The translations under genes and the position numbers were made by a program. From assembly GCF_025359345.1 (NCBI RefSeq), contig NZ_JANYGQ010000033.1, forward strand, positions 124,001 to 188,000: a stretch of 64,000 nt of DNA, read 5' to 3'. The notes beneath the pieces were generated by a model. That model made no database searches. It was given only the letters and a program-made list of their open reading frames with translations, and was not told where the DNA came from. This stretch comes from Mucilaginibacter sp. (GTDB taxonomy: Bacteria; Bacteroidota; Bacteroidia; Sphingobacteriales; Sphingobacteriaceae). Position 1 is the stretch's first letter; each line of letters begins with the position of its first letter. Below, piece after piece: positions 39,065 through 40,381 of the stretch.

Positions 39065-39451
39065 ATGAATATTTCGCTAAACAGGATAATAATTTTCGGT
39101 AAAGATGTAGAAGGGCTTAAGGACTTTTACATGCAGCATTTTAATTTTAAGTTGCTTGAAGAAATTAGCAGCGAGTGGGTTGTATTAAGCGTCGGGCAAA
39201 CAGAAATTGCCTTTCACAAAATCGGAATTGACTTTATAAATGAAAGTGATAATCCGTTCAGGGTGGACAGCAATGCCAAATTAGTTTTTAATGTCGACAG
39301 TGATTTGACCGCATTTTGCGCCGGTTTAATGCAGCAGGGCGTGGTGTTAAGGGATATAAAATCTTTCCCTGGATTTAATTATTTGCTTTGCGATGGAGAA
39401 GACCCGGAGGGTAATGTATTTCAGCTTTCGCAAAAACTAAACAATATCTAA
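39065..39451 (+). CDS. VOC/glyoxalase-like protein
   Basis: MNISLNRIIIFGKDVEGLKDFYMQHFNFKLLEEISSEWVVLSVGQTEIAFHKIG...DPEGNVFQLSQK; start refined from 38945. Confidence 0.85.
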   Translation: MNISLNRIIIFGKDVEGLKDFYMQHFNFKLLEEISSEWVVLSVGQTEIAFHKIGIDFINESDNPFRVDSNAKLVFNVDSDLTAFCAGLMQQGVVLRDIKSFPGFNYLLCDGEDPEGNVFQLSQKLNNI

Positions 39452-39994
39452 CGGTTTTCGTAAATGGATGTCCTGCGCCTTGAATTGTGTGGGTGTAAGC
39501 CCGGTGACTTTTTTAAATTGAGCTGATAAATGCGCAACGCTGCTGTAGCCTAACTTATAAGAGATCTCGTTAAGGTTCATCTCGTTATAAGCAAGCAGTT
39601 CCTTAACCCGCTCTATCTTTTGCAGGATTACATAGTGTTCAATCGTCACGCCTTCTGTTTCCGAAAATAACTTACTTAATTGAGAGTATTCTTTGGCAAG
39701 TTCGTTTGAAAGCACTTTCGAAAAATTGAACTTTTCATCTTCCTTGTAATGAATGTGATCAATTATTATGGCTTTTATTTTCTCAATTTGCCGCCCGCGC
39801 TGATCATCCAGCAATTCAAATCCGACACTTTTTAAACTGGTTTTAAATTGTGCGACTTCTTCTGCCACGAGTGGCCTTTTCAACAGCACTTCGCCCAGGT
39901 GCACATAAACTACCTCAGCATTCATGTTTTCCAACAAAAGCGCGACTGCCTTAACGCAGCGCATGCAAACCATATTTTTTATGTAATACTTCAA
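39437..39994 (-). CDS. AraC-type regulator with N-terminal heavy-metal-associated-like CMRC segment
   Basis: KYYIKNMVCMRCVKAVALLLENMNAEVVYVHLGEVLLKRP + C-terminal HTH_18 (YNEMNLNEISYKLGYSSVAHLSAQFKKVTGLTPTQFK). Probable TTG start at 39994; the ORF track extends to 40069. Confidence 0.85.
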   Translation of the reverse strand: MKYYIKNMVCMRCVKAVALLLENMNAEVVYVHLGEVLLKRPLVAEEVAQFKTSLKSVGFELLDDQRGRQIEKIKAIIIDHIHYKEDEKFNFSKVLSNELAKEYSQLSKLFSETEGVTIEHYVILQKIERVKELLAYNEMNLNEISYKLGYSSVAHLSAQFKKVTGLTPTQFKAQDIHLRKPLDIV

Positions 39995-40108
39995 GGTGAT
40001 TATAATGGAGATGAATTTAAAAGCGGTTTTTTGTTTTAGTAGCCCGGCCAATAAAACAAAGATAGCCACTTAAATTAAATGGCTATCTTGTTTTGAAAAA
40101 TGGAATTA

Positions 40109-40231
40109 TTACAGGCAATTTGAGCAGGTGCAATTGTCGCCACATGTGCAGTTTTGACAGGTACAATTTGGGTTGCTGCATTTTTGAGATTTGTTTTTGA
40201 TTGTATTAATCAATTTGAATAATGATTTCAT
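40109..40231 (-). CDS. 40-aa Cys-rich metallothionein-like protein (not in the supplied ORF track)
   Basis: Minus-strand translation MKSLFKLINTIKNKSQKCSNPNCTCQNCTCGDNCTCSNCL*; 8 Cys in the last 23 residues as C-x4-C-x-C-x2-C-x-C-x3-C-x-C-x2-C. Confidence 0.75.
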   Translation of the reverse strand: MKSLFKLINTIKNKSQKCSNPNCTCQNCTCGDNCTCSNCL

Positions 40232-40260
40232 GATTTTATTTTTTTAATTATTTAATGATA

Positions 40261-40268
40261 CAAATGTA
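40261..40268 (-). promoter_or_regulatory. -7 element (TACATTTG on minus strand) upstream of the Cys-rich ORF
   Basis: caaatgta at 40261-40268 matches TAnnTTTG on the minus strand; no TTG at the -33 spacing. Confidence 0.5.
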
Positions 40269-40381
40269 GCCTGGCGATGACCGGCGACCGTTACATTATT
40301 TGGGGAAAGATTTACATAATTAAGCGGCTATTTGAAAAAATAACAACCTTATATTTTAGAAGCTAAAACACATATTGTATT

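Follow-up and report, generated by a model that had tools for sequence, protein, structure and literature searches.

The window, the whole stretch of 64,000 nucleotides of DNA from Mucilaginibacter sp., a soil-type bacterium, that was analysed, carries on its minus strand a very small cysteine-rich gene followed by the gene of an AraC-type regulator, together with the promoter, operator and terminator elements compiled in Table 1. The small gene encodes the peptide MKSLFKLINTIKNKSQKCSNPNCTCQNCTCGDNCTCSNCL, whose eight cysteines all fall within residues 18–39, and this exact translation agrees with the sequence-only reading, which had pointed to an ORF with eight cysteines and three CxC units. 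It is the single ORF of 30–120 aa in the window that contains at least eight cysteines in 25 residues, and no such ORF was found in 40 dinucleotide-preserving shuffles of the window DNA.

Table 1. Features of the metallothionein–regulator locus (positions refer to the window).
Feature	Position	Strand	Basis or remark
HMA-AraC regulator, 185 aa from TTG	39437..39994	(-)	PF12833, alignments, AF2 pLDDT 88
N-terminal HMA-like beta-alpha-beta-beta-alpha-beta domain, NMVCMRC motif	39785..39991, approximate	(-)	Profile and Foldseek matches
Intrinsic terminator hairpin, between metallothionein and regulator	40058..40090	(-)	MFE -20.6 kcal/mol (71-nt stretch), z -5.4
40-aa Cys-rich mini-metallothionein ORF	40109..40231	(-)	ATG start; 8 Cys, three CxC; translated ORF and orthologues
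-7 promoter box TACATTTG, Bacteroidota type, without -33 box	40261..40268	(-)	Sequence and phylum-wide comparison
Operator half-site 2 CCCCAAATAATGTAA	40291..40305	(-)	Ends 22 bp upstream of -7 box
Operator half-site 1 CGCTTAATTATGTAA	40312..40326	(-)	21 bp upstream of half-site 2

Comparison with the copy of a genus relative (G076, locus L013) has revealed purifying selection on the cysteine core (dN 0.19, dS 1.35), in which four Cys codons differ synonymously, and an N-terminal half that has drifted. The shuffles and this selection rule out a chance origin, and the 40-aa, eight-cysteine ORF is real and conserved. A loss of cysteine spacing in homologues, named beforehand as an argument against a metallothionein, is not seen, as the spacing is kept and the changes in Cys codons are synonymous. 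The peptide has no match among the families of Pfam or NCBIfam, 27 members of its family gave only weak matches to family models, all of them eukaryotic metallothionein models, and no solved structure matching it was found. Since it lacks a match to any curated metallothionein model, and also contains neither histidine nor a zinc-finger-like insert, it does not belong to the SmtA/BmtA-type prokaryotic metallothioneins. It nevertheless has the build of a metallothionein in the broad functional sense, being short and Cys-rich, with CxC/CxxC repeats and a conserved cysteine array, and its family has no curated name.

The regulator ORF was listed as 39437-40069 on the minus strand, with 210 aa from a GTG at 40069. 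Its start is most likely the TTG at 39994, because the same start, just before KYYIKNMVC, is found in all three closest orthologues. The PF12833 (HTH_18) domain is present above the cutoff (E 5e-17), as it is in all 27 relatives, which places the protein in the AraC/XylS family and in no other; PF02583 and a MerR fold are absent, so that it is not a member of the CsoR or CueR families. The neighbouring regulator had been proposed to join a CMRC-containing N-terminus to an AraC HTH, and both parts are indeed present. The Pfam HMA model (PF00403) gives no gathering-level match to the window regulator, and 7 of 27 relatives match it at E<=1, with a best value of 5e-4. A profile of the regulator family, searched against the PDB, recovers the copper HMA domains of ATP7B (3e-5), CopA and CopZ (0.009). 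In the AlphaFold2 model, two HTH units come after a beta-alpha-beta-beta-alpha-beta domain that is predicted with confidence, and Foldseek relates the model to AraC/MarA-type DNA-binding domains and its N-terminus to Atx1 and GolB (TMt 0.61-0.70), these last matches having high probability and weak E-values. The domain therefore has the ferredoxin-like fold with an N-terminal CxxC that defines HMA domains, and N-M-V-C-x-R-C is invariant across the 27-sequence regulator set. The family is found in 204 of 390 genomes of the class, and the source genome encodes three HMA-AraC paralogues. The paralogues L183 and L185 (G000, contig C1 near 59.6 kb and contig C30 near 238.6 kb) are each followed by the operator described below and by a gene for a secreted ice-binding-like (PF11999) lipoprotein; one of them carries MVGPRC, in which the first cysteine is lost. 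Expression of the window regulator itself could depend on read-through or on a weak promoter of its own.

Upstream of the peptide gene, the -7 box and the lack of a TTG at -33 are as the sequence-only reading had reported them, and its proposal of an activator-type promoter is in keeping with the same architecture across the phylum. Its choice of activator site was mistaken: the GC-rich near-repeat GGCGATGACC/GGCGACC lies in the spacer and is absent from the G076 orthologue, and the conserved element is found further upstream (40291-40326). The single 14-mer TGTAAATCTTTCCC was also rejected as operator, being too weak, with 81 places at <=2 mismatches vs 46 for the reversed control. The consensus is a direct repeat, CCCAAAATTnTGTAA-N6-CCCAAAGTnaTGTAA, which has a 21-bp period and precedes nearly every Bacteroidota peptide gene. 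The distance from the second repeat to TAnnTTTG is exactly 21–22 bp in 30 of 33 promoters, and a near-match stands at the same distance in two more. AraC-family dimers bind direct repeats that overlap the -33 region, and such spacing is established for AraC. The candidate operator has this layout, a direct repeat overlapping the -35 region, and its spacing in the window appears to be that expected for an AraC-family dimer. At the other end of the gene, the stable hairpin 3' of the ORF is followed by a U-run, and an intrinsic terminator just past the stop codon is found in 33 of 38 members of the peptide family. With its own promoter and terminator, the peptide gene is thus a self-contained mini-unit, whatever its neighbour.

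In two genus relatives the peptide gene lies directly upstream of the orthologous regulator, which is 95% (L012) and 73% (L013) identical to that of the window, and a locus of M. flavidus (L105) is near-identical to the window locus. Few genomes of the genus have the peptide, however: at E<=0.001, it is present in 3 of 150. A profile of the peptide only, in which the regulator formed no part of the query, gave four matches in 395 class genomes, which belong to four families and all lie directly beside a CxRC-AraC gene. A degenerate DNA pattern, scanned over 84,980 species genomes, found 86 stretches (loci L045-L124); as this pattern fixes CxNxNCTCxxCxCG, part of the peptide conservation in them is forced by the scan, and the independent evidence that they provide lies in the cysteines outside this block and in the neighbourhood. 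About 32 are from Bacteroidota, including Flavobacteriaceae, Chitinophagaceae, Mucilaginibacter and others, and the remainder are mostly from Actinobacteria, with a few from Alphaproteobacteria. The regulator is on the same strand, at most 165 bp away, in 24 of the 32 Bacteroidota loci, and several of the other eight are truncated at contig ends or have the operator only. Searching from the regulator side added further Cys-rich ORFs, more divergent than these and missed by the pattern (L204, L206, L207, L221). The pair is thus present in other genomes, genera and families, and the objection that CMRC-AraC genes elsewhere might have no small ORF beside them falls away.

The metallothionein gene comes first in the window and in Flavobacterium, and the regulator comes first elsewhere. 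In a tree of 84 regulators, one well-supported clade of 28 is entirely metallothionein-linked, a figure inflated by members that were found through the metallothionein pattern, and both the window's Mucilaginibacter-type clade (three sequences) and the L043 lineage are separate from it. Given this separation, the starred branches of the tree require at least three changes of the metallothionein-linked label. On this tree the pairing would have arisen at least three times, in both gene orders, although a single gain with two losses would, in principle, also account for three changes. The recurrence of the pair in both gene orders favours a functional link over inherited synteny.

Further copies differ in number and setting. 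Flavobacterium soyangense (L095:856-1324) has two tandem identical peptide genes, both with an operator and a terminator of their own, and in Flavobacterium agri (L070:5960-6290) a second Cys-rich ORF lies between an operator-like region and the peptide gene. Cys-rich homologues in Actinobacteria (within L045-L124, and L044 on NZ_LR134461) come from Tsukamurella, Mycolicibacterium, Mycobacteroides and others; their upstream regions showed no clear copper operator, and a search there for a RicR-type box gave no convincing palindrome. Plasmids searched with the peptide returned a match in Tsukamurella only, the T. tyrosinosolvens copy having no annotated gene in the annotation table, and viral contigs scanned with the peptide motif returned none. 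In the alphaproteobacterial loci L047, L094 and L107, some of which have extended Cys arrays, a gene for a CsoR-family repressor (PF02583) lies directly after the homologue or within ~500 bp.

The combined operator and -7 pattern occurs in 98 of the 150 genomes of the genus (its reversed control has a handful of matches), and its presence tracks that of the regulator (93 of 127 genomes with the regulator vs 5 of 23 without; Fisher p = 4e-6). Reading 24 cases by hand places the site 10–39 bp from a regulator gene, or ~265 bp when an ORF intervenes. The genes downstream encode CopA-type ATPases, one of which (L191) scores above the TIGR01511 cutoff, HMA-MauE fusions, a permease and an orphan metallothionein of G001. 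An operator-linked operon of the source genome encodes a small His/Cys-rich exported protein, then DUF3347, a multicopper oxidase and a CPH-type copper ATPase (CopB). In most class loci examined the regulator adjoins CopA, HMA-MauE, a multicopper oxidase or a metallothionein, and its closest relatives without a metallothionein (L015-L018) precede HMA-MauE, some with DUF3347. As the operator is shared with CopA, CopB/multicopper oxidase and HMA-MauE genes, this genomic context suggests that the metal is most likely Cu(I); of the Cu, Cd, Zn and Ag proposed by the sequence-only reading, copper is the one to which the operator-linked genes and the neighbours of the regulator point.

The operator also marks more than copper genes, since it is shared with the ice-binding-like genes beside the paralogous regulators. 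A subtype containing GTATTGGTTTGAATG lies upstream of a short-chain dehydrogenase gene (L186, G000 C31:92445) and in many genus genomes, and also in genomes without a detected HMA-AraC gene; it is probably the site of another regulator. The class member G419 has 12 operator-like promoters, on contig C24 (7504-13163) and on other contigs, five of them within 6 kb, and no HMA-AraC was detected in it at the threshold used. Copper operons with the same operator (L184:5704-6096, L191, L201) encode a small exported protein that has no name and carries Cys-His motifs of the HCC/CDCC type; its L184 copy has no match in Pfam.

It is proposed that the peptide is a cytosolic copper metallothionein encoded in its own unit, with the HMA-AraC protein next to it serving as one-component sensor of Cu(I). 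This assignment is considered highly likely, although the rarity of the peptide in the genus, the missing Pfam HMA match of the window regulator and the operators at ice-binding-like genes weigh against it, and its functional steps would be the following. Cu(I) would bind to the two cysteines of the chaperone-like N-terminal domain of the regulator, whose AraC domain would occupy the direct repeat of 21-bp spacing found in place of a -33 box and, as a class II activator, recruit RNA polymerase to the -7-only promoter. The peptide would then be made in bulk from a transcript that stops at the terminator and would enclose several Cu(I) ions in a cluster of thiolates, and the genes that share its operator (CopA/CopB ATPases, multicopper oxidase, HMA-MauE) would export or oxidise the remaining copper. 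The regulator acting at the peptide promoter could be any of the three HMA-AraC paralogues, among which there may be cross-regulation. The core of the sequence-only reading, a thiophilic-metal HMA-AraC sensor that activates a mini-metallothionein, is supported and has survived each of the refutations named in that reading that could be run.

The tight and recurrent pairing of the peptide with the regulator, its only constant partner, could also mean that it is a copper carrier, which delivers copper to the HMA domain or strips it from there as a feedback partner rather than a bulk store. This is unlikely, given that the dedicated promoter and terminator and the tandem copies suggest high dosage, and that orphan peptides occur without an adjacent regulator. 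The identity of the metal is a different matter, as thiolate peptides can also bind Zn and Cd, and bacterial metallothioneins of the SmtA/BmtA type are Zn/Cd proteins. That the peptide is a Zn or Cd metallothionein or a general buffer of thiophilic metals, and that the regulator senses those metals, is decidedly improbable: the operator and the gene neighbours mark copper genes (CopA/CopB above the TIGR01511 cutoff, multicopper oxidase, HMA-MauE), the N-terminal profile of the regulator matches Cu HMA proteins, the peptide has no histidine, unlike SmtA, and CsoR-family genes are its neighbours in Alphaproteobacteria.

It could be argued as well that the Cys-rich ORF is a leader peptide, and that stalling on its Cys codons, or stalling caused by the metal, controls the terminator and hence the regulator. 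The order of ORF, terminator and regulator in the window does resemble an attenuator, and regulatory upstream ORFs with Cys motifs are known for copper genes elsewhere. In most loci, however, the regulator lies upstream and what follows the terminator is an unrelated gene, on one strand or the other, conservation extends beyond the Cys codons to other amino acids (CxNPNCTC, CG), and orphan copies of the peptide have an operator of their own, all of which leaves attenuation with very little probability.

The proposed copper metallothionein with its HMA-AraC sensor has its closest counterpart in MymT of Mycobacterium tuberculosis, a copper metallothionein under the copper sensor RicR (PMC10141476). 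Both comprise a very small Cys-rich copper-type metallothionein, a one-component copper sensor and a wider copper regulon, a likeness set by the description of the system and not by comparison of metallothionein sequences; RicR is a CsoR-family repressor, whereas HMA-AraC is a probable activator that would use a 21-bp direct repeat. Dedicated metallothionein genes beside or under their own metal regulator are also found in the cyanobacterial NmtA, with the ArsR-family repressor AzuR (PMC8790569), in SmtA/SmtB, which is of the same type, and in Pseudomonas (PMC7387436); the window peptide differs by having no Pfam/NCBIfam match and no histidine, and its regulator by another fold and probable activation. 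With AraC/XylS activators (AraC on araI1-I2, SoxS, MarA) the regulator shares the PF12833 double HTH and half-sites 21 bp apart that overlap the -35/-33 region, but where those have a cupin or other sugar-binding domain for the ligand, it has a small ferredoxin fold of HMA type with CxxC. This domain resembles Atx1, CopZ and GolB of the HMA family in fold and CxxC placement, and differs from them in its fusion to a transcription activator domain and in its CxRC motif. Cytosolic Cu(I) sensing over CopA and related genes, as proposed here, is also the role of CueR, CsoR and CopY, whose folds are unrelated to HMA-AraC.

As MymT under RicR, SmtA/SmtB and NmtA/AzuR exist, this kind of system is already known; HMA-AraC as a class of sensor may be new. 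No description of a Bacteroidota metallothionein, nor of a copper-responsive HMA-AraC or other copper AraC regulator, was found in the open-access literature. The copper systems that a 2023 survey reported from the Bacteroidota sampled were all of the two-component or ECF type, with no sensor of the CueR, CsoR or CopY type (PMC10141476), and in Bizionia, studied in 2024, no protein resembling CueR or CopY was found to have a conserved copper site (PMC11213822). It seems rather probable that Bacteroidota have their missing cytosolic Cu(I) sensor of the one-component kind in HMA-AraC fusions. As activators present in more than half of the genomes of the class, these fusions would act through the 21-bp direct-repeat operator on CopA, CopB, HMA-MauE and a mini-metallothionein cassette of an unnamed family, which is portable and has its own terminator. 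HMA-AraC is in any case a concrete candidate sensor, beside copper genes and with a copper-chaperone fold. Its operator predicts a regulon and, if the assignment is true, the regulator with its promoter would give biosensors in Bacteroidota an activation system that responds to copper. As small Cys-rich genes fall below ORF cutoffs, copper storage in these bacteria has been largely invisible, and the regulator also gives an annotation rule for a missed metallothionein family. Across the phylum, the pair of regulator and peptide may thus explain how excess copper is sensed and stored.
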